A stretch of 64,000 nt of DNA from Methylobacterium sp. WL1 (lineage in GTDB: Bacteria; Pseudomonadota; Alphaproteobacteria; Rhizobiales; Beijerinckiaceae), in contig NZ_CP042823.1 in NCBI RefSeq assembly GCF_008000895.1, positions 4,009,001 to 4,073,000 on the forward strand, written 5' to 3'. A program made the position numbers and the translations under genes. The notes under the pieces are model-generated. The model was not told where the DNA came from, ran no database searches, and worked only from the letters and a program-made list of their open reading frames with translations. Below are positions 11,022-28,534 of the stretch, in pieces. Position 1 is the stretch's first letter; every line of letters starts with the position of its first letter.

Positions 11022-11437
11022 CGAACGACCTCGTGGCTGGGGTGGGTGAAGCGGAACCGAGGCGCCGGGCGCGGGCAAGGGGCGCGGCAGGCGGCGGGGT
11101 TGGGAGCGATCTTCCGGGCGAGGCCGCGGATCTCCTCGGCCGACGGGGTGCGATCCGGGCTCGCCCGGGCCTGCGGCTGCAGCGGGAAGGTCACCAGGGA
11201 GATCTCCCAGAGGTCGACCCGCTGCAGCCGGCGCTCGCCGGCCGGGCCCTTGCGGGACAGCAGGGTGCGGAAGCCGATCGACAGCCCGTCGAGGCCGCCG
11301 CCGCGCATCAGCGCGTCGATCTCCCGGGCGCGCTGCACCGCGAGGTTGAGCTGCCCCTCGGCGAACAGGCCGCGGGCATCCTCCCGGAGCGACAGCCAGC
11401 GCCCGATCGGCTCGGCCGGATCGTGCTGGAACAGCAG
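11018..11437 (-). pseudogene. GTA g4 prohead protease, C-terminal part cut off by integrated element
   Basis: This part reads LLFQHDPAEPIGRWLSLRED, LNLAVQRAREIDALMRGGGL, DGLSIGFRT and VDLWEISLVTFP, the central and C-terminal motifs of HK97 prohead proteases (S78), including the catalytic-region DGLSIGF and ISLVTFP. The N-terminal quarter is missing here and is found at 29936-30085. In the sequence as given the reading frame continues upstream to 11464 (MSARTPV), which is element sequence. The gene was interrupted by the 18.5-kb insertion. Capsid maturation by this GTA is therefore probably abolished unless the element excises. Confidence 0.88.
11430..11437. other. Putative left attachment core (attL) of the integrated element
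   Basis: AACAGCAG here and AACAACAG at 29958-29965 are the only short matching sequences at the points where g4 homology stops. Joining the flanks across this 8-bp core (one mismatch) restores GVRLLFQHDPAEPIG in frame. The core is inferred from that reconstruction, not from a long direct repeat. Confidence 0.55.
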
Positions 11438-11510
11438 GCGAACGACGGGTGTCCGTGCGGACATCTACGGACGCCTAATCAGCTGATTTCACTGCGGTTT
11501 GGAGTGACCG

Positions 11511-12764
11511 ATGGTCTACCAACGTCCACAGGTGTGTGCCACAATCCTACAAACGATTGTAGGTACAGACGTAGGCGCTCTGTTCGTGCGGCAGGTTGGA
11601 CGGCTCTCAGCGCTGGCGGTTTCTAGGGCACGCGAGCCCGGCATGTATGCCGACGGTGGCGGCCTCTATCTTCAGGTCACGCACGCCGACGCGCGGTCCT
11701 GGATCTTCCGGTTCATGCTCGACGGCCGAGCCCGCTCCATGGGTCTCGGGCCGCTCCATACAATCTCCCTGGCCGATGCGCGCGCCAAGGCGCTTGAGTG
11801 CCAGAAGCTATGCCTCGATGGCCGTGATCCTATCATTGAGCGCGAACAAGCGCGGGCGCGGCTGAAGCTAGACGCGGCCAAGGCTCTGACCTTCCGAGCG
11901 TGCGCCGAGGGCTACATTGAGGCTCACAAAGCCGGCTGGATCGAGCGGACTACCGATCACTGGCGGACCGCTTTCGAGAGCTTCGTCTACCCGGTGTTCG
12001 GCGGCGTGTCGGTCCAGTCGGTCGATACCGGCCTGGTGATGCAGGCGCTGGAGCCGATCTGGACCACGAAGACCGTGACGGCAGTCCGGGTGCGCGGCCG
12101 CATCGAGTCAGTGCTCGACTGGGCGCGCACGCACGGTCACCGTGTTGGCGAGAACCCAGCACGCTGGCGCGGTCACCTAGCCAACCTGCTGCCGAAGCGA
12201 TCGCGGGTCAGCAAGGTGGTTCACTACCCCGCCCTTCCGTTCAAGGAGGTGCCGGCCTTCATGACCGATGTCGAACGCCAAGCAGGCACCGCAGCGGTGG
12301 CGGTCCAGTTCACAATCCTGACTGCGGTTCGCACGGCCGAGGCGACTGGCGCCCGCTGGGACGAGATCAATGAGGCCGAGGCGACGTGGACGATCCCGGC
12401 CGAGCGGATGAAGGCCGGCGTTCAGCACCGGGTACCCCTAAGCGCCCCTGCCCTCAGTCTCATCCGTCAATTCCGGCCGCTCGGCTCGGAGTACGTGTTC
12501 CCAGGCCTGAAGCGCAGTCAGCCTCTGAGCAAGACGGCGATGCTGAAGGTCTTGGTCCGGATGGGCCGCAAGGACATCACGGTTCACGGGTTCCGATCCG
12601 CGTTCAGAGATTGGGCGAGCGAGACGACGAGCTTCCCACGAGAGGTGGTCGAGGCCGCGCTTGCGCACGTCGTAGAGAACCGGGTTGAGGCAGCTTACAG
12701 GCGGGGCGATCTGTTCGCCAAGCGACGCGAGCTGATGAACGACTGGGCCAACTTCATTTCATAG
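11511..12764 (+). CDS. Tyrosine-type integrase (DUF4102/P4 integrase family)
   Basis: The N-terminal DUF4102 domain (GMYADGGGLYLQVTHADARS, MGLGPLHTISLADARAKALE) is followed by a core-binding domain. The catalytic domain shows the first Arg in LTAVRTAEATGARW, HGFRSAFRDW (HxxR), the second His in ALAHVVENRVEAAYRRGD and the nucleophilic Tyr in AAYRRG. It catalyses site-specific insertion and excision of the element. An alternative GTG start at 11586 fits family length better and would leave the palindrome at 11541-11564 in the attachment/promoter region. Confidence 0.92.
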   Translation: MVYQRPQVCATILQTIVGTDVGALFVRQVGRLSALAVSRAREPGMYADGGGLYLQVTHADARSWIFRFMLDGRARSMGLGPLHTISLADARAKALECQKLCLDGRDPIIEREQARARLKLDAAKALTFRACAEGYIEAHKAGWIERTTDHWRTAFESFVYPVFGGVSVQSVDTGLVMQALEPIWTTKTVTAVRVRGRIESVLDWARTHGHRVGENPARWRGHLANLLPKRSRVSKVVHYPALPFKEVPAFMTDVERQAGTAAVAVQFTILTAVRTAEATGARWDEINEAEATWTIPAERMKAGVQHRVPLSAPALSLIRQFRPLGSEYVFPGLKRSQPLSKTAMLKVLVRMGRKDITVHGFRSAFRDWASETTSFPREVVEAALAHVVENRVEAAYRRGDLFAKRRELMNDWANFIS

Positions 12765-12776
12765 CTTCGCGACGGA

Positions 12777-13472: not shown

Positions 13473-13700
13473 ATGAACTTTCACCAGGTTCAGGCGCCGC
13501 AGGGAGACCTGTGTGCGTCGACGGAGAAGCTTTGCTTCACGGTCCCCGAAGCCTGCTTCAGCACCGGCCTCAGCCGCTCCACCATCTACTTGCTGCTGCA
13601 GGAGAAGAAGCTTCGATCCATCAAGGCGCGCAACCGCACGCTGATCCCGGCAGATAGCCTTCGCGGCTACCTCGCGTCTCTTGAGATGGAGGCCGCCTGA
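13473..13700 (+). CDS. Excisionase-like helix-turn-helix protein
   Basis: A 75-residue protein with FTVPEACFSTGLSRSTIYLL then LQEKKLRSIKARNRTLIPAD, the winged-helix/MerR-like HTH pattern of Xis/AlpA-type proteins ('excisionase family DNA-binding domain'). It probably binds the att region or the element's regulatory region to direct excision. It is preceded by a non-coding gap of about 90 bp (13383-13472) and followed after 3 nt by a run of overlapping small genes, so it probably heads that operon. Confidence 0.8.
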   Translation: MNFHQVQAPQGDLCASTEKLCFTVPEACFSTGLSRSTIYLLLQEKKLRSIKARNRTLIPADSLRGYLASLEMEAA

Positions 13701-13703
13701 GTC

Positions 13704-13907
13704 ATGCAAAAGAAAACCTGCGCTCAGCGCGGGCCGAGGCAGGTTTCCATGATTGTCGCTTCGCAGGCCGACACTCACGGAAATACTCCCGCCCCCGCCT
13801 TTCGGCAAGATCTCTATCTCGCCGCACGCTTCGGTCTCTCGCCGGCCGTTGCCTCCGCCGTGGCCGAACTGGCTTTCACGGTGACTGATCGTTGGGGGCG
13901 CGCATGA
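13704..13907 (+). CDS. Small hypothetical protein
   Basis: 67 residues, no recognised family. An internal ATG at 13749 (MIVASQADTHGN) could be the true start. The C-terminal half (AARFGLSPAVASAVAELAFT) is Ala-rich and helical. Its stop overlaps the next gene's ATG (ATGA at 13904), a sign of translational coupling in the element's early operon. Confidence 0.5.
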   Translation: MQKKTCAQRGPRQVSMIVASQADTHGNTPAPAFRQDLYLAARFGLSPAVASAVAELAFTVTDRWGRA

Positions 13908-14260
13908 GCGCCTCCAACCTCAGACAGATCATGCGCGACACTGACGCTCGGCTTGAGGCCGCCCGTGATGACGACGAAGTTCGTCGCGTCGGCATCGACC
14001 ATATGAACGCCCTCGGCGCCGATTTGGCGGCGACGGCGTATCTGAAGCTCGTGTCTCGGCCAGACATGACTGTGGATCAGCAGGCCGGCTTCCTGAAGGA
14101 CACGATCGGCGACCTGATGACCTCCATCGAGGCCTCGTTTGTCACCCATGGCGTGCAAGACGTTGCGCTCCTGGCTGATCACCTGGAGGCAGCCGAGGTC
14201 GGCTTCGTCGGCCGCCTCGACGAACTGTTCTCCGTAGTGCGGATCGGAGGGCGGGCATGA
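13904..14260 (+). CDS. Hypothetical protein in the element's early operon
   Basis: 118 residues, predicted mostly helical (LRQIMRDTDARLEAARDDDE, VDQQAGFLKDTIGDLMTSIE). No family is recognised. The ATG at 13904 overlaps the previous stop, and its own stop overlaps the next ATG at 14257. The tight overlaps make it a real gene. Function unknown. Confidence 0.7.
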   Translation: MSASNLRQIMRDTDARLEAARDDDEVRRVGIDHMNALGADLAATAYLKLVSRPDMTVDQQAGFLKDTIGDLMTSIEASFVTHGVQDVALLADHLEAAEVGFVGRLDELFSVVRIGGRA

Positions 14261-14490
14261 ACGCGCCCTTCCACAGCCCCGAGCGGGCAGCGATGGCCGT
14301 TCACACCTTCGACGCCGTCGCCGAGGCCGCGTCGATCGCTGAAGCCTATGCCCGGATGGCCTCGGAGATGGCGGCGATCGGTGACAGCCGTGGCCTTCGG
14401 TATGCGCTGCGCCAAGCCGCCGTCGCACTCGCCAGCGCCGCAGATGCTGCAGCGCTACTCAGCCCCACTGGCTCACGAGGAGGCGCCTGA
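14257..14490 (+). CDS. Small hypothetical protein upstream of the ATPase
   Basis: 77 residues, Ala-rich and helical, unrecognised. It overlaps the gene before it by 4 nt and the ATPase gene after it by 1 nt (TGATG). It is part of the same operon as the RepA-like ATPase, which hints at a replication-related role but does not show one. Confidence 0.65.
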   Translation: MNAPFHSPERAAMAVHTFDAVAEAASIAEAYARMASEMAAIGDSRGLRYALRQAAVALASAADAAALLSPTGSRGGA

Positions 14491-15752
14491 TGTCGGAGCG
14501 CTCTTTGCACGGCTCCTCGCTGGACGAGCCAGATCGGTTTCACGACTGGCCCGGCCCGGACCCTGACGTCCTACCGCGGAGTAAGCGGCGTGACGATGTC
14601 CCGGCTCGCAATGGGCCTGCCATCAGCATCCGGTGGCATGGCGATGCAGATCCGCAAGCCGATCGGGACTGGCTTGTCCAAGACCTAATTAGCGAGACCG
14701 GTAAGGGGCTGATGCCTGGGCAGTGGGGCTCCGGCAAAACCTTTACGGCCCTCGACCTGTCCGCATCCATCATGACCGGCGAGCCGTTCGCCGGCCGGCG
14801 GGTCATGCGCCGCGGCGGCGTGCTGTTCGTCGCCTCAGAAGGTGCCTTTGAGATCCCCATCCGCTTGAGGGGTCTGGTTCACGGCAAGCTCGGCTCGGAT
14901 GCAACCGAACGTCTACCGTTCGCTTGGATCGAGGACTGCCCACGCCTCCTCAGCACCGAGGCTGTGGCGCAGCTGGCCACGACGGCAAAGGCTGCAGCTG
15001 AACATCTGCGCGAGACGTTCGACCTCCCGCTGGCGATGATCATCATCGACACGGTGGCTGCAGCCGCTGGCTTCGGCGACGAGAACAGCGCGGCCGAGGC
15101 GCAGAAGGTGATGAACGCCATGGAGGCGCTGAGCCGTCAGACCGGCGCGTTCGTCCTCGGCATCGACCACTTCGGAAAGACGACCGAGACCGGTACCCGT
15201 GGATCCTCCGCCAAGGAAGCCGCGGCCGACGTGGTGCTGGCGGTGCTCGCCAACCGCGACGAGGGCGGCACGATCTCGAACACGCGCATGGCGATCCGGA
15301 AGGTCCGTGGCGCACGCTGCGGCTACGAGATCCCATTCGCACTGGAGGTCGTCACCGTCGGCGAGAACTACGATCAGGAGCCGATCACGACCTGTGTAGT
15401 CCAGTGGCAGACGGATCGAGTGTCCTCCGCCGCAATGGCGGCCGGCAAGGAACGCTGGCCGACATCCGTGAAGGTCTTCCGGCAAGCCCTGCTGTCGAGC
15501 CTCGTTGACGATGGGGTGCGTGCTTGGCCGTTCGGCGACGAGGGCGCTGAGGTTCGCGCGGTCCCGTTGCAGGCCGTGAAAATTGGGTTCAGCGCGATCT
15601 ACCCAGCGGATGGGGACGATGAGGCCAAGCGCACCGAGGCAAAGCGGAAGGCCTTCAAGCGCGCTGTTGATACCTGTCTCGGCCGCAGCCTGATCGGCTC
15701 GGTGGCGCTCAAAGGTGTCGATCATCTCTGGATGATCGAGGCCGCTGAATGA
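14490..15752 (+). CDS. RepA-like AAA family ATPase (AAA_25)
   Basis: A 420-residue protein with a Walker A loop in GLMPGQWGSGKTFTALDLSA (about residues 75-90) and a Walker B strand PLAMIIIDTVAAAAG. These are followed by FVLGIDHFGKTTETGTRGSS and a sensor-like ADVVLAVLANRD. This matches the RecA-like hexameric helicase family (RepA/AAA_25) found in alphaproteobacterial phages and mobile elements. It probably opens DNA for replication of the excised element. A GGACA/TGTCC repeat array follows directly (15761-15858) and could be the origin. Confidence 0.82.
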   Translation: MSERSLHGSSLDEPDRFHDWPGPDPDVLPRSKRRDDVPARNGPAISIRWHGDADPQADRDWLVQDLISETGKGLMPGQWGSGKTFTALDLSASIMTGEPFAGRRVMRRGGVLFVASEGAFEIPIRLRGLVHGKLGSDATERLPFAWIEDCPRLLSTEAVAQLATTAKAAAEHLRETFDLPLAMIIIDTVAAAAGFGDENSAAEAQKVMNAMEALSRQTGAFVLGIDHFGKTTETGTRGSSAKEAAADVVLAVLANRDEGGTISNTRMAIRKVRGARCGYEIPFALEVVTVGENYDQEPITTCVVQWQTDRVSSAAMAAGKERWPTSVKVFRQALLSSLVDDGVRAWPFGDEGAEVRAVPLQAVKIGFSAIYPADGDDEAKRTEAKRKAFKRAVDTCLGRSLIGSVALKGVDHLWMIEAAE

Positions 15753-15760
15753 CCGGCTCG

Positions 15761-15858
15761 ACCGGACGGACAGGACAGATCCCTAGGGTTTTGTCCTGTC
15801 CGTCCGGTCCCGGACACCGGACAAACCGGACATTTGTCCGAAATGTCCGCCCTGTCCG
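15761..15858. repeat. GGACA/TGTCC repeat array with a perfect 17-bp hairpin; candidate origin
   Basis: ACCGGACGGACAGGACA (15761-15777) and its exact complement (15792-15808) flank a 14-nt loop that contains CCCTAGGG. CGGACA then occurs three times and TGTCCG three times up to 15858. The array lies between the ATPase stop and the best start of the DUF3102 gene. Iteron-like repeats beside a RepA-like ATPase suggest a replication origin, but the hairpin could also be a terminator. Confidence 0.6.
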
Positions 15859-15895
15859 CAGCCTGCTACCATCCACTAGCAACGGGAGATCCGTG

Positions 15896-16567
15896 ATGAC
15901 GAAGTCGAATATTGCGAGCGCCATTAACGCGGCCCATGCCGGTGTCGAGGCTGCAAAGCGCGAGGGAGCGCGGTACGCTGTCGAGTGCGGCCGGTTGCTT
16001 TCCCAGGCCAAGGAGACCGTCCCGCACGGCGGCTGGGACGCCTGGCTTCGGCTGAACACCACGGTCTCGCCGAGGACTGCACAGCTCTACACGCGGATCG
16101 CTCGGCACGTCGAAGGCGACCCGGCAAAAGCGCAACGCGTTGCGGGTTTGAGCGTGCGGGAAGCGGCGGCCGAAGCGACCGGACCGAAGCGGGGTACCGC
16201 GTCTAGGAAGGCCCTATCGCACGAGGTCGAGCACGACTTCAGTGAGTTGAAGCAGGTCTGGGACGAGGCGAAGGACAACCCGGATTGGCAGGAAGGGGCG
16301 GCCCGCGAACTATTCCGCATTGGCTACATCACCAAGCCGCAGCGGAACGACATCATCCGCAGCGTCTGGGCAAAACACTACGCTCACCTGACCGATGCGG
16401 ATCGGAAAGAAGCTGCGAAGCGCGCGGCCGAAATGCTGGTCGAGAAGCTACCGCGGGAAACGCTGCTCAAGCTCATTCCAAGGCTTAAGAACGTGCCGGC
16501 CAGCGATATCGCGATCGCTATGGGGGACGTACAGGAGGATCGGAAACGGCGGGCAGCAGAGGTGTGA
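15896..16567 (+). CDS. DUF3102-family protein
   Basis: A 223-residue protein. The N-terminal segment HAGVEAAKREGARYAVECGR, LLSQAKETVPHGGWDAWL, SPRTAQLYTRIAR is the DUF3102 signature, a domain common in phage and plasmid genes and thought to be DNA-associated. The C-terminal half is a charged helix-rich extension. The frame is open from 15749, but that part would encode the repeat array. The ATG at 15896 preceded by GGGAG is the better start. Function not known. Confidence 0.75.
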   Translation: MTKSNIASAINAAHAGVEAAKREGARYAVECGRLLSQAKETVPHGGWDAWLRLNTTVSPRTAQLYTRIARHVEGDPAKAQRVAGLSVREAAAEATGPKRGTASRKALSHEVEHDFSELKQVWDEAKDNPDWQEGAARELFRIGYITKPQRNDIIRSVWAKHYAHLTDADRKEAAKRAAEMLVEKLPRETLLKLIPRLKNVPASDIAIAMGDVQEDRKRRAAEV

Positions 16568-16591
16568 CTCTAGCCACCCACCGAGCACTAT

Positions 16592-16966
16592 TCAGATACC
16601 GACGCTGGCTGCCCCTGCATCGGCCGCCTGCTTAACCGTCGCACCCTTGCGAAGTGCTGCGGCTATGGCGGCCGAAGCCGTATCTACTGCGCTAGCACGC
16701 TCATCACCGTAGTCGCGCGCGCTGTTCATCTCCGATCCCACCCGTGCGTAGAAGTTATCCGGGAAGCGCTCACTCATGCGCTCTCTCAACATTGCCGTCG
16801 CGCTACGATAGTCGCCGTCAAAATCCACCGACATATTGCCGGAATTGGAATTGGAATTGTAATTGCCATTATCGCGCGATCCATAACCCTGATCGTTGTC
16901 GGAGGCACTTGGTCTGTATCTCAAAAAGCCGACGATCTTCGAAAACAAACCCTTGTTAGTATTCAT
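16592..16966 (-). CDS. Hypothetical protein with an Asn/Ser/Gly low-complexity tract
   Basis: 124 residues on the opposite strand to its neighbours. It has a short basic, hydrophobic N-terminus (LFSKIVGFLRYR) and a disordered stretch of repeated Asn-Ser and Gly residues at about positions 33-44. The helical C-terminus has two Ala-rich segments (AVDTASAAIAAALRKGAT, KQAADAGAASVGI). No family is recognised. Its reversed orientation within the operon suggests a separately regulated cargo gene. Confidence 0.6.
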   Translation of the reverse strand: MNTNKGLFSKIVGFLRYRPSASDNDQGYGSRDNGNYNSNSNSGNMSVDFDGDYRSATAMLRERMSERFPDNFYARVGSEMNSARDYGDERASAVDTASAAIAAALRKGATVKQAADAGAASVGI

Positions 16967-17052
16967 CGGATCCCCTCGAAAAGACGGCGTCGAACGCGCC
17001 TTCCTCTTCCATCAAGCACTCGGCAGCATCGAAAAAGTTCCGGAGCCCTGCC

Positions 17053-17490
17053 ATGACGCCCACCGAGCGCGACCGCTTCGAGAAGTGCCTCGCCCTGGCC
17101 AAGCGCGGAGCTACAGCTGGCGAGCGCGCCGCCGGCCTCGCCGCAGCCGAGCGCCTTGCTGCCTCGGCCGGCATGACGCTGTTGGAGGCCAAAGCCGCCG
17201 TCGGGCACTCTCGGCCTGCCCCACCAAGAATGGATTGGCCGTACCCAACGCCCCGCGCGGCACGTCGGACCCCGCTTAGAGCGAGGGCCAAGCGGCCCGT
17301 GAAGCCGCCAACCCTGGAGGAGGTGCTTCGGCAGAGGGCTGAAGCTGATGCGGAAAAGCGCCGGGCAGCCGCCGCGGCAGATCGCAGGCTCCTGAGGGAA
17401 CTGGCCGAGCAAGCCGCCTACGAAGCGCGACAGCGGGAGCTTCAGGGCGAGCGCGATCGGGAGTGGGCGCGTTCGCGGGCGAGCGGCTGA
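17053..17490 (+). CDS. DUF2786-like N-terminal domain protein
   Basis: A 145-residue protein. Residues 8-45 (EKCLALAKRGATAGERAAGL, LAASAGMTLLEAK) resemble the DUF2786 domain, a short helical module common in phage and plasmid genes. The C-terminal half is a Glu/Arg/Ala-rich helix likely to be a coiled coil (about residues 90-140). No enzymatic motif is seen. The assignment rests on the spacing of the LAKR...GE...AA..LA motif. Confidence 0.6.
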   Translation: MTPTERDRFEKCLALAKRGATAGERAAGLAAAERLAASAGMTLLEAKAAVGHSRPAPPRMDWPYPTPRAARRTPLRARAKRPVKPPTLEEVLRQRAEADAEKRRAAAAADRRLLRELAEQAAYEARQRELQGERDREWARSRASG

Positions 17491-17660
17491 AACTTATCCG
17501 ATAGAGCGAGCGTATCGGCGCGCGTACCTCTTTTGGTCAGTCCGTATGCCGCCTTGATTGTGGATCCATTCCCACCTGCGTAGTGCGACGGGTACCGGAA
17601 GGTGCAAATGAATTTATAGGTTTAAGGTATTCAATTGTGACGCCACTTATGATCCGCACC

Positions 17661-17840
17661 ATGGACACTATCTGCAGATTTCTCAATCTTGATTTCCCCA
17701 CTCAAGATGGCGGAAGTCACACTGCATTTCGGAATGTCGCTATGCCCCTTCGCAAATTAATCATGCTTGCAGTGATTGGTTTGATGTGGGCCATAGCTAT
17801 TGGCGCCATGGGGTATTTAGCTGTGATGTATTTTCAGTAG
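17661..17840 (+). CDS. Small membrane protein, AT-rich
   Basis: Read from the ATG at 17661 the product has 59 residues ending in one clear transmembrane helix (KLIMLAVIGLMWAIAIGAMG). Earlier in-frame starts exist at 17649 and 17583 (GTG). Local GC content is clearly below that of the surroundings. No family is recognised. A holin-like or toxin role is conceivable but unsupported. Confidence 0.45.
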   Translation: MDTICRFLNLDFPTQDGGSHTAFRNVAMPLRKLIMLAVIGLMWAIAIGAMGYLAVMYFQ

Positions 17841-18002
17841 TACATGGTCTAAATTGAATTCAATAAGACTTTAAGAAAAATAACGAATTCCCATCAATGT
17901 AACGAATTGTACGTTATGTCGCAACGGTATCTGCATCGCTTTATGCATCCTGCCGTTGTACCATCCTGGATATTCCTCGCTTAAGGGGGGAATAAGCGGG
18001 AT

Positions 18003-18302
18003 ATGGCGTTGTCGATGGTACATCTCTTGATCGCCCTGCTCGGGGCCACATGCGGCGTGCTACTAAACTGGTATGTGCTGATCCCGATCGTGACCGCCAT
18101 CGCTCTTGCCAGCGGTGTGGCAGGTGCAATCAATGGGTGCACGTTTAGTGACATGCTGACTGACACCGTCCTCAAGGTTTGCATCCTAGAGGCAAGCTGG
18201 TTGGCATCCGTCTGCATCATCTCTCGCATGATCCAGAGGCGGCCGGATCGACCTGATCGGCATGTAGGACGAGATCGCACCCCATCTGAACGGGGAAGCT
18301 GA
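18003..18302 (+). CDS. Small membrane protein
   Basis: A 99-residue protein with two hydrophobic segments (MVHLLIALLGATCGVLLNWY, VLIPIVTAIALASGVAGAIN) and a third weaker one (VCILEASWLASVCIISRM), then a basic tail rich in Arg and Asp. No family is recognised. It is flanked by AT-rich non-coding stretches (17841-18002 and 18303-18477) in which only promoter-like A/T runs are seen. Confidence 0.55.
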   Translation: MALSMVHLLIALLGATCGVLLNWYVLIPIVTAIALASGVAGAINGCTFSDMLTDTVLKVCILEASWLASVCIISRMIQRRPDRPDRHVGRDRTPSERGS

Positions 18303-18489
18303 CAAAGACATTCATCTATAAATGTGCGACAGAACAACTCAGCCCAACCGCAACAAAACACAACGTTGGACAACTGTACATAACGGCGGACGTAGATCTG
18401 GCATTAGCTGACGTGACGGCCGTTATTGCAGACCGGTCAATAAGATAGCACTGTAAGAGCCACGCAACTGCAACGCGGTGGCACTTACG

Positions 18490-18708
18490 ATGACCAACCC
18501 ACTCCGACGAGACGCACTACTCCGGCTGAAGGTCGAGACTGATCTCGCCCGAGCCGTAGAGAGTACCGCCCGCCAGCGCGGTCAGACAGTTTCGGAATAC
18601 GTGCGCCAGGGCGTGCGCGCTCACCTCGCCCGTCACGGTGTTCGGCTCAGCCCGGACGACGGCCCCCGCACGCCTCCGGCCGCTCCCGCCCTGCGACAGG
18701 CAGCTTGA
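18490..18708 (+). CDS. Ribbon-helix-helix DNA-binding protein
   Basis: 72 residues. RRDALLRLKVETDLARAVES, ARQRGQTVSEYVRQGVRAHL is a classic CopG/Arc-type ribbon-helix-helix: one beta strand, then two helices. The proline-rich C-terminus is probably disordered. It is likely a repressor within the element. An in-frame GTG at 18478 is an alternative start. The gene is followed closely by 18720. Confidence 0.7.
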   Translation: MTNPLRRDALLRLKVETDLARAVESTARQRGQTVSEYVRQGVRAHLARHGVRLSPDDGPRTPPAAPALRQAA

Positions 18709-18719
18709 GGACGGCCGGC

Positions 18720-19523
18720 ATGCAGTACGTCAACATCCGCCACAACAATCACGACGGTAACGTCGCGCCGCACGTCAGCTTGGGCCGCAGCTACATTGAC
18801 CGTCTGCCGGTGACGGTGCCGGTCGAGCCCCGGACTGCCGCACAGATCATAGCGGACCGTGACCGCGCTCAAGCCGAGCGCGAGTCCTTAGAGGCATCCC
18901 GGTCCGACGTGCTGGTGAACGGCTCGGTCGAGGATTTGCTCGCCCTCGACACCCGCATCGCGTTGGCGAAGGCGAAGCAGGATCAGGCAGAGGCGCAGCA
19001 CGCCATCGCAGTGATCGCCGAGGCCGACGCGAAGGCCAAGAATGAGGCCGAGCAGGCCCGCCGCAAAGCTCTGCGCAAGGTCGGCCTGAAGGCCAGCGCC
19101 GAGGCCGGCAAGCTCGCGGACAGGTACGTGGCCATGGCTCAGGAGATGGCCGGGCTGCTCAACCAGTTGCGTGGGCACGAGCAGGCAATCGCCGAGGCGA
19201 ACCAGAACCTGCCTGACGGCGCCGAGCCGGTGCCGCCTGGCGAGCCGTTCAATGGCACCGCAGGCACGCCCACCCGCTACGAGACCTCACACAACCTCGT
19301 CTGGGTCGACAGCCGCGACGGCTCCCGCGCGAGCGCAATGGCCGGCGACGACCTACGGCACCGTGCGGCGAAGCGGGTCGAGCAGGAAGTCTACGTGCCC
19401 GGCACGCCAGGCGAGCCGCACATCCCGCTGTCCCACCGCGTCACGCTGCCCGGTCTCGGCCGCGATGCTCCCCGCATCTGGGGCGGCATTCCCTCTCCCA
19501 TCACTTCCAACACGGGACGCTGA
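18720..19523 (+). CDS. Coiled-coil hypothetical protein
   Basis: A 267-residue protein. From about 35 to 165 it is a long Ala/Glu/Lys/Arg/Gln-rich helix (AKAKQDQAEAQHAIAVIAEA, AEQARRKALRKVGLKASAEA), clearly a coiled coil. The C-terminal third is Pro/Gly-rich and extended. No family is recognised. The placement among late-type genes would suit a structural or scaffold role, which is speculation. Confidence 0.6.
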   Translation: MQYVNIRHNNHDGNVAPHVSLGRSYIDRLPVTVPVEPRTAAQIIADRDRAQAERESLEASRSDVLVNGSVEDLLALDTRIALAKAKQDQAEAQHAIAVIAEADAKAKNEAEQARRKALRKVGLKASAEAGKLADRYVAMAQEMAGLLNQLRGHEQAIAEANQNLPDGAEPVPPGEPFNGTAGTPTRYETSHNLVWVDSRDGSRASAMAGDDLRHRAAKRVEQEVYVPGTPGEPHIPLSHRVTLPGLGRDAPRIWGGIPSPITSNTGR

Positions 19524-19525
19524 GC

Positions 19526-19798
19526 ATGAGCATTGATCGACAGAACCCCGGTGAGCACGCCGCCTTCTGGCGCCGTGTCCTCAACAAGCCTGAGCCGGTG
19601 ACCGCTGAGCGCAAGCCGACCCAGGCTGAGCGCCTTGCAGCGTGGTCGGCGCAGATCCGCCAGAACGAAGCCAAGGGCACTCAGACCCGCGCGGTCGTCG
19701 AGCAGACCCGGCGCGATCTCCACACTCCCGGTGCCGCCTACAAAGTCGGCGCCGAGCGCTTCGCCATGGACGGCACCCGCTGGAAGCGCGTGGCCTGA
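19526..19798 (+). CDS. Hypothetical protein
   Basis: 90 residues, Arg- and Gln-rich, starting 2 nt after the preceding stop, so probably co-translated with it. No family is recognised. The end of the protein (VGAERFAMDGTRWKRVA) resembles the short 'DGxRWxRxx' beta motif that also closes the 20030 and 21050 genes, suggesting a common small fold. Confidence 0.55.
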   Translation: MSIDRQNPGEHAAFWRRVLNKPEPVTAERKPTQAERLAAWSAQIRQNEAKGTQTRAVVEQTRRDLHTPGAAYKVGAERFAMDGTRWKRVA

Positions 19799-20029
19799 AC
19801 GAAATTGCGTGGGCCAGACCCGAGAGGGCCCCCTTCACCCACGCCATTGAGGGCGATGCAGCCAGCCCAACAGCGACAAGCCAGCCTGTCCCTTGCCTCG
19901 AATGCCATGGACCCGGGGATACCAAGGCCGGCGCAACTGCGCCCCGTCGACCAAGCGACGGACCATCGGAGACCGCGGCGGTGTAGTGGCCTGCTGCGGT
20001 CTCCTCACCCGACAGTCTGGAGAGCCATC

Positions 20030-20236
20030 ATGGCCAACACCCCGCCGAACCCGACCGACACTCAGATGCTCGCCGTCTACAACGACCTCGCTAACACGAT
20101 GATGAGCAAGGACCCGGGGGACGCGCGTAGCGTTGGCATGGCCGGCTGGCCGAACGTCGGCGACACGAAGGTGATCGACGGCCACACTATGCGCTGGACC
20201 GGCAACACCTGGTCGCGCGCCGACACGGCGGCGTGA
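20030..20236 (+). CDS. Hypothetical small protein
   Basis: 68 residues from the ATG at 20030. The N-terminal half is helical. The C-terminus VIDGHTMRWTGNTWSRADTA carries the repeated DGxxxRWxGxxW motif seen in two neighbouring gene products. Function unknown. The 231 bp before it (19799-20029) contain no convincing gene. Confidence 0.55.
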   Translation: MANTPPNPTDTQMLAVYNDLANTMMSKDPGDARSVGMAGWPNVGDTKVIDGHTMRWTGNTWSRADTAA

Positions 20237-20330
20237 CGGCGATCGGCAGGGATGCGGTGAGCGACCGTCCCTCACTGCCAGAGGGTGGGACCCGTGATGG
20301 ATCTCCCTGCGGAGGGTGTCCGGTCTAAAT

Positions 20331-20373
20331 AGGACTCGGGTCCTCTTTTACCCTCCCCTAGGACACGGGTCCG
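20331..20373 (+). promoter_or_regulatory. Pair of GGAC-N-CGGGTCC palindromes upstream of the Nu1-like gene
   Basis: AGGACTCGGGTCCT (20331-20344) and AGGACACGGGTCCG (20360-20373) are near-identical imperfect palindromes spaced 29 bp apart, about three helical turns. The first is followed by CTTTT and may act as a weak terminator. The pair may instead be an operator or a packaging recognition site for the HTH protein encoded at 20454. Confidence 0.4.
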
Positions 20374-20453
20374 CATGAGTCCGATAACTCCGCAGATAGC
20401 GCCCCCCAAAACCCAGCAACACAGAACGGCTAGCGCAACAGGCAACACGCAAC

Positions 20454-21053
20454 ATGGCAACAACTGAAACCCGAGCCGCCTTCGCCCGCCGCCATAGTGT
20501 GAACCGTTCGACGGTTGGGCGCTGGGAAGCCAAGGGCAGCATCGTGCTGACGGTCGACGGGCTGGTGAACGTCGAGGCGTCGGAGCAACTGCTGGGCGGG
20601 CGGGCGGAAACTTACCGCGGCGGCAAGGCCAAGGGGCCGAGCGCCAAGACGGATCGGAAGAAGGCCGCTCCAGATTTGGTCTCCCCAGATTTGGGGACAC
20701 CCCCTGATCCGTTGGCGCTGGCCCACGCCGGACTCGCCGAGGTCATCCGCGCGATTGGCCCCTATGCCGCCCGGATGGCGGTGGAGTTCGGCGCGCCGCT
20801 GCAGGTTGCCTACGGGCTCGACCAGGCCGTTGCCGTCGAGGCAGATGGCATCGCAGCCCGGTTCCTGGCCCAGCACGGTCATCCCGACACGGCCAACGGC
20901 TACGGCACGCTGGAAGCACTGGGCCTCGACTACGCGGATCCGGACTGGGCAGCGCTCGCGAAGGCCGCCGACGTGCCGCTGGACCTCGAAGCGCTCGATA
21001 CCTGGTTCACGGCCACCGACTACTGGCGGGCACCGCCGGAGGTGTCGGCATGA
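20454..21053 (+). CDS. Nu1-like HTH protein, candidate small terminase
   Basis: 199 residues. The N-terminal winged HTH (AAFARRHSVNRSTVGRWEAK, GSIVLTVDGLVNVEASEQLL) has the arrangement of phage DNA-packaging protein Nu1 and related small terminases: HTH, then 'I-V-L-T-x-D-G-L-V-x-V-E-A-S'. A charged linker and a helical C-terminal domain (about 85-160) follow. No large terminase is encoded in the element, so if it is a small terminase it would have to use a partner's motor. A general DNA-binding regulator is the alternative. Confidence 0.6.
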   Translation: MATTETRAAFARRHSVNRSTVGRWEAKGSIVLTVDGLVNVEASEQLLGGRAETYRGGKAKGPSAKTDRKKAAPDLVSPDLGTPPDPLALAHAGLAEVIRAIGPYAARMAVEFGAPLQVAYGLDQAVAVEADGIAARFLAQHGHPDTANGYGTLEALGLDYADPDWAALAKAADVPLDLEALDTWFTATDYWRAPPEVSA

Positions 21054-21181
21054 CCGACCAGCCGAACAACCAGCCCATCGCCTCGAACGACCCGCCGCGC
21101 ATCGGTGAGATCCGGGAGCTGTTCGGGATCAAGCTCCGGTGGAATGGCTCTCAGTGGCAGAAGGTGACCGCAAATGGCTGA
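21050..21181 (+). CDS. Small hypothetical protein
   Basis: 43 residues, starting with an ATG that overlaps the previous stop (ATGA) and ending 8 nt inside the tape-measure gene. The C-terminus (GIKLRWNGSQWQKVTANG) has the same Trp/Gly/Lys motif as two upstream small proteins. The double overlap supports a real gene. Function unknown. Confidence 0.6.
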   Translation: MTDQPNNQPIASNDPPRIGEIRELFGIKLRWNGSQWQKVTANG

Positions 21182-23684
21182 TGAAGCGCTCCGCATGCAG
21201 GCCGAGGTCGTTGACCGGTTCAGCGGCCCTCTGAAGGCCCTCCGGGCTCAGCTGCTCGACACCAGCCGCGAAGGTGCCCAACACGGCCAGAACCTAGCGA
21301 AGGGCATGGGCAAGGCCGAGGCTGCGATCCAGTCGACGGCGAACTCGGCCAAGACGATTTTGAGCCCGGCACTCGCTGGCCTAGGCGTCACCAGCATCGG
21401 CGCCGGCGTGGCAGTGGCGGGCATCGCCAACGCGCTGAACAGTCTCTCCGGCAACCTGTCGAGCCTCGGGCAGCTCGGTCGTGAGACCGGCATGGCCGCC
21501 GACCAGCTGCGCGTGTTCCAGTCGGTGGCTGGCAAGTTCGGGGTGTCGGGCGATGCCGCTTCGGCCGCCCCAAAAAGCTTTGCGACGAACATGCGCGACA
21601 TCCGCCGTGGCGTCGGTGAGACTATGGGGTTCCTGCAGTCGCAGAACCAAGTGGTCGCCCAGTTCGCGATCAAGCTCAAAGGCACCACGAACAACGACGA
21701 AGCCTTGAAGATGGCTGAGGAGTTCATGGAGCAGATCCCGAACGCGGTGGACCGGGGTCGCTTCGCCGAGAAGCTGTTCGGCAACATGGACCTGGGCCGG
21801 CTCGGCGATAAGCACCTGGGAGCGATAAAGGACCTGAACGCGAAGACCGCCGAGAAACTTGGGCCCCTGGACCCTGCTGCCGTTGCGAGTGCCGAGCGGT
21901 ACGATCGAGCGCTTTCTGACCTCCGCTCGTCCATGTCCAAAGTCGGCATGACCATCGCCTCCGAGCTGATGGTACCGGCCGAGCGCTTCACCTCGTGGAT
22001 GAACGATCTCGTCTCGGGCCAGCGGAAAGAGCTGATCCAAGGGCTCCGCCGGGGCATGCACGACATCGGCGAGGAACTGGGCAAGATCGACTGGCAGACC
22101 GCGGGCAAAAACGCGGAGCAGATGCTGCTCACCACGACGGCGTTGGTGACGCCGCTGGCCAAAGGCGTCGCCGAGATCGCGGCGTCGATCAAAAGCCTCA
22201 GCGAGGGCAAAACCCTGGAAGCACTGCGGCACCTCGACGGTGGCAGTGGTCCGCTCGCCCGCAAGCTCGCCCCCATGGTGGGCGACGACGAGATCAACGC
22301 CTCGGAGAACGTCGACCGCCTGCGCAAGTTGCGGGACGTGTCGAACGAGGCGTCGCAGCACCTGATCGGCCGCACGCAGCAGCGCATGGGTTTGATCGAC
22401 AGCCCGGAGGCGGCGCAACAGAAGCTGGACGCGGCCGAGGCCGAACTGAACCGGCTTAAGGCCCGCACCCCGGAGCAGCGCCAGAAGGACTACGATGCTT
22501 CGACCGAGCGACTGCGCAAGTCGGTCGACGGTCTGTCGGAGCAGTTGAAGACGCAGCAGGGCGCCACGGCCCAGAAATCATCCCTGGACGCCGACGGCCT
22601 GTTCGGTGACGCTCGGGTCCAGGCAGCCTCTCTCGGCGGCGCCAGGATCTACGGTGGGCCTGGCGGCATCGGTCCCATTCCGGAGGCTCAGCGCGACGCG
22701 GCGCGCGAGGCGTTCCGGAAGTACTTGATGAAGAAGGTGCCAGGCTACGACGGTGGGGCCATGGTGCCGACCGGGCCGGGCGGGCGGATCCCTGGCCTCG
22801 GCGGCGAGACGCCTCGTCTACCCAGTGTCGGCGGCGGCAGCGAGCCACCCAGCGGTTACACAGGCAACGATGGCCGCCGCGCCGCCGGTAGCCGCATGTC
22901 TGGCTCGGGTCGCGAGAACGTCGCCTCCTGGATGGAGTTTTTCCGCCGCCCCACCGACAAGGGCGGCATGGGCTACACCGAGGAGCAAGCCCGCGGCCAG
23001 GTCGCGATGATGCAAGGCGAGTCGGGATTGAACCTGAACCCGGCGGCTAAGGGCGATCACGACCGTAGCGGCGTCCCCCATGCATTCGGCACCGTGCAGT
23101 GGAGCGATGCCAAGGGCAATCAGCGCTTCCCACGGCTTCGCGCTCTGGGCGCCGAGATGGGCAAGGACTGGACGGATCGCTCCGTTCAGCAGGAGATGTA
23201 CCGCCGCGAGATGATGGGCACCTACCGCCGGGTCTACGATCGGATCCGCGGCGCGCAGAGCGGCGAGCAGTCTTTGTGGACGGGCATCACCGGGTACGAG
23301 AACCCGCGCGAGCACAGCCTCGCTTACGGGATCCGGAAACCCTTCCTCGACCGGCTGCGCCGACAGGGTGTTGAGGCGCCGACTGCCCGTACCCCAGGCT
23401 TACCGCGCCCCGAAATTGGCCAAGCCGACGGCGAGGCCTGGGCGTCCCGGGAGAAGGCTAGGAAGGCGTTCGAGACGATGCAGAAGGGCGAGGGCCGCCT
23501 CGATGCCTCCGCCAGCCGTGCCGGTGTCGTGGGCGGCACGAAGGTCGAGGCGAACGGCAGCGTGAACGTCCTCGTTCAGAAGCCTGGGCCGGACACCAAC
23601 GTTCGCACGTCAGCCTCCGGCAACCTGTTCAAGGACGTGGTGCTGAGCCGGGGCCGGACGATGGCGCCGGCGGAGCGGTCGTAA
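21174..23684 (+). CDS. Phage tail tape-measure protein with C-terminal tail-lysozyme domain
   Basis: An 836-residue protein. Residues 1-60 are coiled coil (LKALRAQLLDTSREGAQHGQ). A hydrophobic segment follows at about 63-90 (LSPALAGLGVTSIGAGVAVA), then long helical regions. After a Gly/Pro-rich linker (about 510-575), residues 580-720 (GYTEEQARGQVAMMQGESGL, AFGTVQWSDAKGNQRFPRLR) match the phage tail lysozyme domain. Such proteins set tail length and cut peptidoglycan during DNA injection. It is the only recognisable virion gene in the element. The frame is intact. Confidence 0.82.
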   Translation: MADEALRMQAEVVDRFSGPLKALRAQLLDTSREGAQHGQNLAKGMGKAEAAIQSTANSAKTILSPALAGLGVTSIGAGVAVAGIANALNSLSGNLSSLGQLGRETGMAADQLRVFQSVAGKFGVSGDAASAAPKSFATNMRDIRRGVGETMGFLQSQNQVVAQFAIKLKGTTNNDEALKMAEEFMEQIPNAVDRGRFAEKLFGNMDLGRLGDKHLGAIKDLNAKTAEKLGPLDPAAVASAERYDRALSDLRSSMSKVGMTIASELMVPAERFTSWMNDLVSGQRKELIQGLRRGMHDIGEELGKIDWQTAGKNAEQMLLTTTALVTPLAKGVAEIAASIKSLSEGKTLEALRHLDGGSGPLARKLAPMVGDDEINASENVDRLRKLRDVSNEASQHLIGRTQQRMGLIDSPEAAQQKLDAAEAELNRLKARTPEQRQKDYDASTERLRKSVDGLSEQLKTQQGATAQKSSLDADGLFGDARVQAASLGGARIYGGPGGIGPIPEAQRDAAREAFRKYLMKKVPGYDGGAMVPTGPGGRIPGLGGETPRLPSVGGGSEPPSGYTGNDGRRAAGSRMSGSGRENVASWMEFFRRPTDKGGMGYTEEQARGQVAMMQGESGLNLNPAAKGDHDRSGVPHAFGTVQWSDAKGNQRFPRLRALGAEMGKDWTDRSVQQEMYRREMMGTYRRVYDRIRGAQSGEQSLWTGITGYENPREHSLAYGIRKPFLDRLRRQGVEAPTARTPGLPRPEIGQADGEAWASREKARKAFETMQKGEGRLDASASRAGVVGGTKVEANGSVNVLVQKPGPDTNVRTSASGNLFKDVVLSRGRTMAPAERS

Positions 23685-23703
23685 CGGCGAGCAGCGGAGC
23701 GCG

Positions 23704-24129: not shown

Positions 24130-25048
24130 GAGCCTGTTTGAGCGTCTTATCTTAAGCCGGATTGTTGAGGGCATTAGCGGCCATGAGGCTGGCGGCGCAG
24201 ACGAGGCGCCCTGTCGCGACATCAAGGCGACCGGCGCGCTCACGGTGCAGGCCGCCCCAATGGCTGAGCCAGCCGAAGGTTCGCTCCACGACCCAGCGCC
24301 GCTCCAGGACGACGAAGCCCTTCTGATCCGGGTCTTTCTCGACGACGCGATGGCGCATGCCGTGGATGTTGCACCATTCCCGGCAGCGTTCGGCCGCGAA
24401 GGCGCCGTCGAGGATGGCCAAGCGTAGACTGGGCCACTGCTCCTTGCCATCATCAAGGGCGGGTAAGGTATCGCGATCCTGCACGTTGGCCGGCACGACG
24501 GCGAGCGCCAGAACATGGCCTTCGGCATCGACCAAGGCCACGCGTTTGCGCCCGACGACCTTCTTGGCGCCATCGTAGCCGCGCGGTCCGCGCACCCCGA
24601 TGCATTTGACGCTCTGCGTGTCGATGATCGCCAGCCGTGGCTCCGACCGGCGTCCGCAACGCCGCCGCTGACGGCGGGTCAGAGACCGCAGCAGGCTCTC
24701 GAACAGGCCCTTGTCGATCCAGCGCCGGAACCAGCCGTAGACCGTGCGCCACGGCGGAAAGCCCGCAGGCAGCGACCGCCATCCTCCGCCCGTCCGCAAG
24801 TGCCAAGCTATCCCTGCCAGCGCGTGGCGCGCCGGTGTAGCCTCCGGACAGCCCGGCGGATCCGCGCGCTCCAGGAAACGGGCCACCTCGTCCAAGCCCG
24901 CTTGCAGCACCATGTTCTTCAGACGCGCCTCGTGACGCGTCCGATGTCGGTCCGTCCACATCTGCTCTCCACCCCGCCCCGCCAGGCGGAATTTGTGTTG
25001 CTACACGAGACAGATGGGGACGGCCGGCAGAGGCGCTCAAACAGGCTC
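24130..25048. mobile_element. IS5-family insertion sequence (IS427-like), 919 bp
   Basis: The terminal inverted repeats begin GAGCCTGTTTGAGCG at both ends (15 bp exact). They are flanked by a TTA direct repeat at 24127-24129 and 25049-25051, consistent with the short TNA target duplications of IS5-family elements. One transposase gene lies on the minus strand. The interrupted host gene can be rejoined perfectly, so the insertion is recent. Confidence 0.92.
24152..24961 (-). CDS. IS5-family transposase (DDE)
   Basis: A 269-residue transposase. The N-terminal DUF4096-like region (HALAGIAWHLRTGGGWRSLP, TVYGWFRRWIDKGLFESLL) precedes the catalytic core with Asp in LAIIDTQSVK, Asp in LAILDGAF and Glu in RRWVVERTFGWLSHWGGL. 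It is a single uninterrupted ORF of the IS427-group type, so the IS may be active. Confidence 0.92.
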   Translation of the reverse strand: MWTDRHRTRHEARLKNMVLQAGLDEVARFLERADPPGCPEATPARHALAGIAWHLRTGGGWRSLPAGFPPWRTVYGWFRRWIDKGLFESLLRSLTRRQRRRCGRRSEPRLAIIDTQSVKCIGVRGPRGYDGAKKVVGRKRVALVDAEGHVLALAVVPANVQDRDTLPALDDGKEQWPSLRLAILDGAFAAERCREWCNIHGMRHRVVEKDPDQKGFVVLERRWVVERTFGWLSHWGGLHRERAGRLDVATGRLVCAASLMAANALNNPA

Positions 25049-25515: not shown

Positions 25516-27512
25516 TCAAGCAAACCCATCATGATCAGAACCGCCATTTTCAGGCAAAGGACGTCGAGCTACCGCAAACATCCCTTGGCGCTCAAGGAAA
25601 GCTAATTCAGTCCAAAAGTCTCTTGACGCATAAGTAACCGGCATCAGCAACCTAGAAGCTTCAGAAACAGACCGCGAAATACTCAACAAATGTATGATTT
25701 CACCTAGATCTAACCAATGAACATTGAACAAATATGCCCCAAGATCAATCTTTCCTTCTTCGTTCGGCGCGACTTGCTGCAACAATATAAACAATTTTCG
25801 AAGATTTTGATTAAATGAATTTATGGCATCGTCATCCTCGGGCCGTCCAGTAACCGAATGAAAGACCGCTCTCGTAAGCGATCCCATTATAGCCCTTAAC
25901 AAGACTTTGTCAGACATCTGTCCGTATGACAGCGGCGAGATCGCTAGCTTAATTAATCTTAAGGCAGACCAATCATCGTTGATAGAGGCAATTTCGGTAT
26001 GTCCAGCCTTGATATTGATTTCATGTCGAGAAAGTTGCCGAAGCATTGCGAGGTAACTCTGAGAAAAATCCGTCAAATATTTTATTGGATTTCCGGACCT
26101 TGCCGGAGCAGTTAAGGACTTAGCCTTGGTCTCGAACAAAACTATCCTGTCATCAGTGCGCGCTGCATAATCAATTTCGAATTTTTGTTTCTTGACCAAA
26201 TAATTGTATTGAAAGAACGCTACCGTCGATTTTCCCTCGCATGCAATTTGGATTGCCCATTCCATTGAGTCTCCAACAATTTTAGACGCTCGCTCTTTCG
26301 GCAAAGTTGACCAGACCAATTTGTAAACTAAGAAACAACAGTGAGCTCCTGTCAGGGTCTTTGGCAGGAGAACAAGTTCATTTAAGCTACGCTCATAAAA
26401 TATATTTCCTTCTTGATTTTCTATACTTCTGTCAACAGGATCGATGACGTCATTGTAGATGGCATGCCCTTTTCTTAGGCCTTGGGCGAATAAAATAGGA
26501 AAATCTTGCGTCGCACGATCTTTCGGACAAATTGTTGGCCTGTCTTCTGCGGTACAATCAAGCAATTTATCGATTTCATGAAATACTTTTGTCAGATCAA
26601 AACCCAAATTGCGCTTATCATCGACTGTAATAAACTTATTGAATGCCCGAGCAAGCGTCTTTGTAACCATCTGAGGAGTTTGTGGTAATGTAAAGGCCTC
26701 TCTCCAAATCAAAGACTCTCGCAATGCACGCGGTATTTCTGTAACATCTACGTTCGAGTGCTCAAATTGTCCGTACCGTTGGGCGTCATATATAGCTAGA
26801 TAATCTTCCGATATAGAGAACAAAGTGTCTATCATACGGCTGGGCTTGGCTGCCGTTCCCGCTTTCGAAATATTTCGTATGGCTACAGAGCAAAGCCACC
26901 CATAAGGGCTGGCAATTCGTCCCTCTTGAGTGAAACCGGGTACTGTGTTGCCAAACAACCAAAAGCCGTTGTGGAAGAGATTTCTTTCTCGCATTCGCCC
27001 AAAAATAATTTCAAGAATACGAAGTCCGCCAATAAGGGCGGCAAAATTATCGATTACCGTCAATAGTTCGCGCTCTGACGATGCTGCCATGCGAGGTCCT
27101 TGCGCACCAACTTCAATTTTATAGCCTCGCGTCCTCAATCTTCGGCATGCTTCTCCTACATGCCTCTGTCTCATATATATAGGCTGGCGACCATAGAGTG
27201 CTTCTCTAGCCGCCATAGATCTCAGGCCCCAGGCGGTTGCTTCAATCCATTTATCGCGACAATCGAAAGCAACGCAGCTATTGCCTTGCAGTTTCCCTTG
27301 CAAAAAGAGCAAGACTCTTGCTGCGTCTTCCGGCGCATCACCCAAAAAAAAGCAATTTCGGCAGATTTTGCTAGTCGCCAAATCTCAACAGACGACAGCA
27401 CAGTGTCGCCAATTTGCAGCTGACTTAAAGTATCTTCAGTGAATTCTCTGTCTAAAATCTTCGCGGAGTTAAAAATATCGACAAATGATTTCAGATCTGC
27501 ATCAGCTAACAT
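25516..27512 (-). CDS. Large AT-rich protein with PD-(D/E)XK-type nuclease motif; candidate defence gene
   Basis: Two frames join at a run of eight A/T bases near 27343-27350. The first reads LADADLKSFVDIFNSAKILD to KSAEIAFF, and the second continues LGDAPEDAARVLLFLQGKLQ to the stop at 25516. One added T gives 665 residues. Near the middle, KKQKFEIDYAARTDDRIVLF then ETKAKSL shows an ExD-x(n)-ExK arrangement on two beta strands, the core of PD-(D/E)XK nucleases. The gene is much richer in A/T than anything around it, opposite to the element's operons, and unrecognised otherwise. An orphan restriction or abortive-infection type nuclease is the best guess. Confidence 0.6.
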
Positions 27513-28141: not shown

Positions 28142-28534
28142 ATGGCTACTCACGCCCATAGCACACGCACGCCCTTATTACCCCAGTACGGCAACCCGCG
28201 GCCCTTATTAGGCCAGGGGCTCGCCCGGCAGCTGGGTCCCGTCTCCCGGGCCATTCGAGCCTGCCGCGAGACCGATCCCGCCGACCTAGCCATCGCCGAC
28301 ATTCAGATCGGTCTGGCGAGCTTCTTCGCCGATGCCGACCGCCAGCGCGTCCGCGAGCTGCGCCGCCGGATCGCTGACCGGATCGAGGCGGACCTGGCTC
28401 TACTCGATGCCCTTGAGGGCGACGCTGACCTCGAAGACGGTCACGACGCCGAGGGGCTGACCGACGACAACGGCGTCGCCGAATACGACGCGATCGGCGA
28501 GCAGGGCTTCCCGGGCTACGGGGGCTGCCTATGA
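28142..28534 (+). CDS. Hypothetical protein
   Basis: 130 residues. The central helices (LAIADIQIGLASFFADADRQ, VRELRRRIADRIEADLALLD) are amphipathic, and the C-terminus is strongly acidic. No family is recognised. Its stop overlaps the following ATG (28531), marking a small operon of four genes. Confidence 0.55.
   Translation: MATHAHSTRTPLLPQYGNPRPLLGQGLARQLGPVSRAIRACRETDPADLAIADIQIGLASFFADADRQRVRELRRRIADRIEADLALLDALEGDADLEDGHDAEGLTDDNGVAEYDAIGEQGFPGYGGCL

Follow-up and report, generated by a model that had tools for sequence, protein, structure and literature searches.

A PICI-like phage satellite candidate of Methylobacterium with its own tape-measure protein, inserted in a gene transfer agent gene

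Capsid-forming phage-inducible chromosomal islands (cf-PICIs) are satellites that encode virion parts, and P4-type satellites have a P4-type integrase architecture and a cos site in common with their helper. Satellites can also change the tail of a helper: the tape-measure protein (TMP) and hub of PLE11, a PLE satellite of Vibrio cholerae, replace those of ICP1, as was shown in 2026, and deletion of the PLE11 TMP cut transduction by ~99.9% (PMC12987554). TMP and hub form a trio with a tail chaperone in PLE11, and the part of that paper available to us also reports tmp in some cf-PICIs (PMC12987554). Here, we describe an element in a stretch of 64,000 nucleotides from Methylobacterium sp. WL1 (contig NZ_CP042823.1, positions 4,009,001 to 4,073,000; hereafter the window). 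The window contains an integrated element that is discrete and belongs to a conserved family; it has a cos-like site, a protein resembling the small terminase subunit (TerS), a phage-related TMP and genes under purifying selection. It looks like one integrated phage satellite and not a remnant, and we consider it fairly likely to be a PICI-like Methylobacterium satellite that would be packaged by a Mu-tailed cos helper and would place its own TMP in the helper tail.

The element and its family

The element spans approximately 11443-29958 of the window (~18.5 kb), with joints uncertain by ~15 bp per side. The first-pass annotation had given 13473..23684, an interval that does hold named genes; however, the integrase starts to the left of it at 11511, and its end is too early because a split protease gene and a conserved set of right-end genes reach ~29958. 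Thirty open reading frames (ORFs) of the element were scanned, 15 against Pfam and PHROGs, eight against PHROGs alone and seven against Pfam alone, and no match to a capsid, portal or large terminase family was obtained, in keeping with the initial description of a satellite that has a tail gene but lacks capsid genes. Pfam and PHROGs likewise confirmed the integrase, RepA-like ATPase, TerS candidate and TMP of that description.

Relatives were compared in 68 Methylobacterium regions including the window, which were fetched for TMP, integrase or other matches and do not form an unbiased census; genes were called with a codon-usage script and then mapped with hidden Markov models (HMMs). At least three satellite backbone markers accompany the TMP in 26 of the 46 TMP rows (24 loci in 19 genomes), and HMM mapping found no marker for TerL, portal, protease, major capsid protein, sheath or tube within 14 kb of the TMP in these 24 satellite loci. 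Capsid, sheath or tube genes lie at most 14 kb from the TMP in six rows (G018, G006, G085, G068, G024 and G071), and backbone markers are nearly absent from complete prophages (0-2 each). Another 14 rows have fewer than three backbone markers and no capsid gene; among them are partial contigs and broken copies as well as members of another subfamily. Direct repeats of 51, 51 and 39 bp flank three relatives, which measure 20.0, 18.3 and 18.6 kb, and these attachment repeats overlap tRNA-His (G020, G042) and tRNA-Ser (G065) genes. TMP matches were obtained in 35 of 149 sampled relatives, all within the genus of the window, and the RepA-like ATPase was matched in 41 of 99 genus genomes.

The satellite genes are under purifying selection, with dN/dS below 1 for the TMP (0.10-0.41, 8 pairs), the TerS-like protein (0.18-0.23, 4 pairs), the hub of relatives (0.10-0.14, 4 pairs), the integrase (0.11), RepA (0.08-0.11) and the conserved proteins c0 (0.27-0.33) and c7 (0.23).

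Within the family, two satellites (L060 and L061) are adjacent on a single contig (G065:C198). A subfamily with its own p20/p19 genes comprises L083, L071, L055, L061, L075 and L085; most of its members encode a ClpP-like head-maturation protease, which is fused to the capsid protein in phage L208.

Tail gene, terminase-like gene and cos-like site

The profile check proposed by the first-pass annotation for the 21174 protein returned a tape-measure family (Table 1). The window TMP is 65% identical to that of phage L203 (828 positions), 58% to that of phage L205 (811 positions) and 70-71% to those of satellites G042 and G079, and 33 of its last 36 residues are identical to L205. Median TMP length is 824.5 aa in satellites versus 831.5 aa in phages, and the lysozyme domain is variably present, occurring in some phage TMPs (L203, L216) and some satellite TMPs. 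A tblastn search of a phage collection with the window TMP gave matches in ten Rhizobium phage records only, all confined to the lysozyme part.

The main TMP tree comprises 44 rows, 28 from satellites and 16 from phages or prophages including IMG/VR phages; it excludes the distant-TMP loci G065d, G036, G012, G085f, G052e, G065c and G052c, which a 37-row tree includes. G080 was labelled satellite despite having two backbone markers, and G071 prophage despite a hybrid look. With these labels, at least nine satellite/phage changes are forced on the 44-row tree, at least five on the 37-row tree and at least three on the hub tree. The window TMP forms one clade (100/100) with two other satellites and five phages (L203-L207), the inner order of which is unresolved, and satellites G020c and G020b pair with phages L208 (96/99) and L216 (100/100), respectively. 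In the tail region of prophage L180 (G071:C63, 9047-15361), a hub stands immediately after the TMP and is followed by a satellite-type c16 gene, ahead of the gene usually found next, an order that would fit recombination between a satellite and a helper.

The gene upstream of the TMP encodes a protein of 199 residues, of which residues 3-71 match phrog_57; this helix-turn-helix (HTH) part is 53% identical over 57 aa to the TerS of prophage G018. We use the name TerS-like because the HTH is of phage type and the C-terminal half aligns solely with satellites. The original proposal of a small terminase is thus upheld for the N-terminal HTH but not for the rest of the protein, and the same phage collection returned no match to the TerS-like protein. 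The late zone of the family varies. It consists of the TerS-like protein, the 43-aa c6 and the TMP in the arrangement seen in the window; variant B combines a full-length Nu1-type TerS (TerSb, phrog_57 5.5e-19) with a baseplate hub (phrog_177 9.8e-54; Pfam gp44/GpP domains) and the TMP, and a third variant has a ClpP-like head-maturation protease (phrog_2976 9.1e-27). Satellite L193 has a tail chaperone (Phage_TAC_7 2.8e-6) beside hub and TMP; neither chaperone nor hub was found in the window element.

BLAST of the DNA upstream of terS revealed a block common to satellites and two complete prophages, the TerS proteins of which differ. A first-round site model, built from these two prophages alone and searched against 94 records (1.72 Mb, some overlapping), gave eight new matches at E ≤ 0.01, all 42-74 nt upstream of terS (four distances taken by script and four by hand; L214 is nearly identical to L215). 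A second-round model, made from 10 sequences that did not include the window, picked up further satellites as well as TerL-proximal sites in other prophages, all with weaker scores, and did not report the window copy at E ≤ 1. The latter was spotted by eye and afterwards tested by the exact pattern GGGTCC-N23-GGGTCMGC-NN-GAG, which has 21 sites in 17 of 111 genomes, a single one in the genome of the window and none in the reversed control. A TerS-HMM ORF follows 47-219 nt after 19 of the 21 sites and is absent at L247 and L257; the phage record of L205 also contains an exact match. In lambda, the cos site precedes terS. Given a large terminase of the phrog_15 type and a site that stands ahead of terS as in lambda, we read this sequence, common to satellites and phages, as a cos-like candidate packaging site. 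The genome of prophage G018 has a second cos-like site (G018:C1:6141116-6141157), and a short TerS-like ORF follows it.

Candidate helpers are complete prophages (G018, G006, G085) and IMG/VR contigs (e.g., L205, L208) with TerL, portal, head, sheath, tube, TMP, hub and baseplate genes; gene names were checked by PHROG or Pfam for G006 and parts of L208, and the remainder by HMMs made here. TerL, portal, head and tail sheath/tube genes stand between terS and TMP in the complete prophages and phages examined. The gene order of the element, the presence of which inside complete prophages would have pointed to a simple remnant, was therefore not seen there. Helper-type TerL was found at E ≤ 1e-60 in 13 of 111 genus genomes.

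Insertion in the gene transfer agent, and further genes

The element lies in the prohead-protease gene of a gene transfer agent (GTA), a site that the first-pass annotation had not named. When aligned to the window, the intact 179-aa protease of relative G030 falls into two parts: residues 1-46 correspond to 30085-29948, and residues 39-179 to 11443-11021. The element is oriented opposite to the split head gene. The attachment site was located by comparison with intact GTA relatives; among the nine exact direct repeats listed for the element ends, none occurs at both joints, and an Rfam search of the element returned no family. GTA loci were matched in 84 of 99 genus genomes; among the best 30, which were compared, the protease site was uninterrupted in 28 and interrupted in two, the window and G041. 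The integrase of G041 is 87% identical to that of the window, whereas the next best match across 111 genomes reaches 66%. Since G041 is another species and holds this integrase at the same GTA point, the window integrase appears to be site-specific for the GTA protease gene. The G041 element has a related HTH_17/AlpA-like gene and a late zone unlike that of the window.

Other GTA genes of the window also differ from intact G030. At 32346-33651 and 3678-4171, the alignment of the GTA large-terminase gene runs through three frames and that of the GTA tape-measure gene through two, with two frameshifts in the former and one in the latter, which are either real decay or assembly indels; an assembly error is possible. 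Opposite-strand genes amid the GTA genes (6678-9482) are present in G030 too and, by reading of the translations, encode two putative trypsin-like proteases and a putative Dps-like protein.

Table 1. Features of the satellite element and of the split GTA gene in the window (window coordinates)
Feature	Position	Strand	Evidence or remark
C-terminal piece of interrupted GTA prohead-protease gene	11021..11443	-	G030 alignment; target, outside element
attL side, attachment core (GTTCGCCTGCTGTTCCAGCACG on - strand)	11422..11443	-	identical 22-mer at same GTA site, G041
Tyrosine integrase, inward-reading	11511..12764	+	PF00589 3.7e-14, PF22022, PF13356; phrog_1 2.6e-45
HTH_17/AlpA-like regulator or excisionase	13473..13700	+	PF12728 6.6e-7; PF05930 0.021, under its cut-off
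RepA-like AAA_25 ATPase, replication zone	14490..15752	+	PF13481 1e-30
DUF3102 protein, kept in relatives	15749..16567	+	PF11300 3.5e-8
m8, conserved satellite ORF, opposite strand	16592..16966	-	relatives
DUF2786-like ORF, kept in relatives	17053..17490	+	weak Pfam match 0.0061, under cut-off
Ribbon-helix-helix-like protein, kept in relatives	18478..18708	+	PF01402 0.0015, just under cut-off
c0, widely conserved satellite protein, predicted 93-residue helix	18705..19523	+	AlphaFold2 mean pLDDT 75
c1, conserved satellite ORF	19526..19798	+	relatives
Small ORF at c5 position of relatives	20030..20236	+	relatives
cos-like site GGGTCC-N23-GGGTCCGC-AT-GAG	20338..20379	+	exact pattern; 74 nt before terS
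TerS-like protein, terminase-type N-terminal HTH and satellite-specific C-terminal half	20454..21053	+	phrog_57 1.6e-5
c6, 43-aa ORF, conserved ahead of TMP or hub	21050..21181	+	no Pfam/PHROG match
TMP with Phage_lysozyme2 domain	21174..23684	+	phrog_8125 6.3e-13; Phage_lysozyme2 3.2e-10
IS4/5-type transposase, cargo zone	24152..24961	-	PF01609 9.9e-21, PF13340 1e-17
AT-rich cargo gene	25516..27381	-	93% identical copy in G065 satellite cargo zone
c7, conserved right-end gene	28142..28534	+	relatives
c23, conserved right-end gene	28531..28770	+	relatives
c16, conserved right-end gene	28767..29162	+	relatives
c17, conserved right-end gene	29153..29353	+	relatives
attR side, attachment core (GTGAGGCTGTTGTT region, imperfect copy)	29958..29976	-	comparison with intact relatives
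N-terminal piece of interrupted GTA prohead-protease gene	29948..30085	-	G030 alignment; target, outside element

A fold search of c0 against viral structures gave no match at E ≤ 0.001. A relation of c0 to p20, a coiled-coil protein of another satellite subfamily, was considered and rejected (no profile relation, probability 3%).

Variable, often AT-rich genes lie between TMP and c7 in relatives and in the window. Ten of these cargo genes were scanned against PADLOC, with matches to the defence genes PtuA (1.4e-119) and PtuB (2.5e-76) in G082b and AbiD (1.1e-71) in G022b, to an OLD/TOPRIM-like ATPase (8e-14) in G042, and weaker ones to SIR2 and PDC-S33; four of the ten, including the gene at 25516..27381 of the window, had no PADLOC match. 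A RelA/SpoT domain occurs in G059, and reading of translations suggests a flagellin-like cargo gene in L062 (6903-8105) and L152 (5065-6267).

Competing explanations and known systems

In the scenario that we favour, an infecting or induced Mu-tailed cos phage would cause the satellite to excise and replicate, the TerS-like protein and the cos-like site would steer the helper TerL to satellite DNA, and the capsid would be formed from helper head proteins. The satellite TMP, joined by hub or chaperone in relatives, would then replace that of the helper in tail assembly, with its conserved C-terminus docking on the helper hub, and yield chimeric tails like those of PLE11. Because a packaging-site-like sequence common with complete phages is found together with an own TMP, the satellite probably travels in particles with tails altered by this TMP. 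Altered helper tails, which the first-pass annotation had raised as a possibility, are supported as the likely purpose of the TMP.

Several observations weigh against this scenario. Helper-type TerL was not found in the window genome at E ≤ 1e-60, so the helper would be either external or more divergent. In the TerS-like protein of the window, the C-terminal half aligns to other satellites only and is not recognisably terminase, a search of the protein fold against viral structures gave no match at E ≤ 0.001, and two highly divergent TerSb pairs have dN/dS of 0.46 and 0.60. The satellites of G020, G042, G022, G069 and G037 have only inexact cos-like sites or no exact pattern. The TMP tree shows mild clustering of satellite and phage labels (21 of 500 shuffles were as low), and we therefore describe the TMPs as interleaved rather than random. 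Lastly, as the right-hand attachment core is imperfect and a transposase is carried inside the element, the copy in the window may be immobile.

The TMP and the TerS-like HTH protein might instead serve interference, as dominant-negatives that spoil tail assembly or packaging of the helper while the satellite uses unmodified helper tails. A phage-type HTH joined to a different C-terminal half fits a packaging blocker, and relatives carry defence cargo; however, the satellite TMP is full length, near to phage TMPs in size and under purifying selection, its C-terminus is nearly identical to that of a phage, and relatives add hub and chaperone, i.e., tail-building parts. We regard interference as improbable. 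Decay of a prophage, with integrase, replication, TerS and TMP genes kept by chance, is more improbable still. Although it would account for phage-like genes without capsid genes, the internal transposase and the partial state of several relatives (the 14 TMP rows mentioned above), it is largely refuted by a backbone and gene order that are the same in 24 loci of 19 genomes and nearly absent from complete prophages, by purifying selection and by relatives bounded by direct repeats.

That two species have an insertion in a GTA head gene, with closely similar integrases, could also mean that the element parasitises or regulates the GTA whose protease gene it occupies, and helper-embedded PICIs, as described in the part of the source available to us, are found within late genes of the helper, a head-protease site among them (PMC10111431). 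We give this explanation as little credence as decay. TMP, TerS HTH, cos-like site and the hub of relatives match those of Mu-tailed phages, tRNA genes are the integration sites of relatives, the element orientation is opposite, and the GTA TerL and TMP genes of the window are frameshifted relative to G030, with the reservation on assembly given above. A GTA whose prohead-protease gene is split by the element, in the window and in one further species, is unlikely to be the helper, and this split, together with the match of TMP, TerS HTH and cos-like site to Mu-tailed phages, speaks against the GTA as the tail partner that the first-pass annotation had considered. Returning to a satellite of Mu-tailed phages, a bolder extension would be that the lineage swaps whole tail modules (TMP, hub, chaperone) to match different helpers, that tail composition, in addition to packaging, defines the helper and that excision in the window could restore the GTA protease and so couple two transfer systems; we hold this to be rather doubtful.

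If tail remodelling is true of this unrelated alphaproteobacterial family, it would be a general satellite strategy. The family offers many natural TMP and hub swaps, matched to phage lineages by tail-protein phylogeny, the cos-like site links satellites and phages in general, and the GTA protease gene is a named site for asking why a satellite sits in a gene transfer agent.

Among known systems, Gram-negative PICIs resemble the element in an inward integrase followed by HTH_17/AlpA and in the order of integration, dynamic, replication and late zones (PMC6092414, PMC10111431), as well as in a specific attachment site, which is the GTA site in two species and tRNA sites in relatives. Cos-type packaging in some Gram-negative PICIs and late-gene capture are also described in the accessible parts of these sources (PMC6092414, PMC10111431). 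In contrast to them, the replication gene is RepA-like here and DUF3987 or Prim-Pol in relatives, c0, c1, c7, c16 and c17 belong to no known family, and the late zone is a tail module. Insertion in the head-protease gene of a phage-like cluster is a feature of helper-embedded PICIs (PMC10111431). Those, however, are co-oriented with the interrupted late gene of the helper according to the part of that paper available to us (PMC10111431), whereas the cluster here is a GTA, the orientation is opposite and related satellites are mostly elsewhere. Unlike cf-PICIs, the window element has no recognised capsid, portal or large-terminase gene of its own, and unlike P4-type satellites it has a TerS-like protein and a TMP and no recognised P4 capsid-size genes. 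With PLEs it has in common a TMP of its own despite an incomplete set of tail genes, hub or chaperone in some members, and defence functions; it differs in host class and gene backbone, in a cos-like site common with cos-type Mu-tailed phages and in TMP alleles that track several lineages of phages. Chimeric tails were demonstrated for PLE11 and are what we infer here, and the PLE proteins are likened by description, not by sequence. Our literature searches returned no paper describing a TMP-bearing satellite of Methylobacterium. The earlier view that no described satellite has such an arrangement does not hold, as PLE11 and other PLEs carry their own TMP according to the accessible text of the source (PMC12987554). 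Tail remodelling by a satellite TMP thus has a precedent in PLE11, and it is the lineage and the combination of features that look new.

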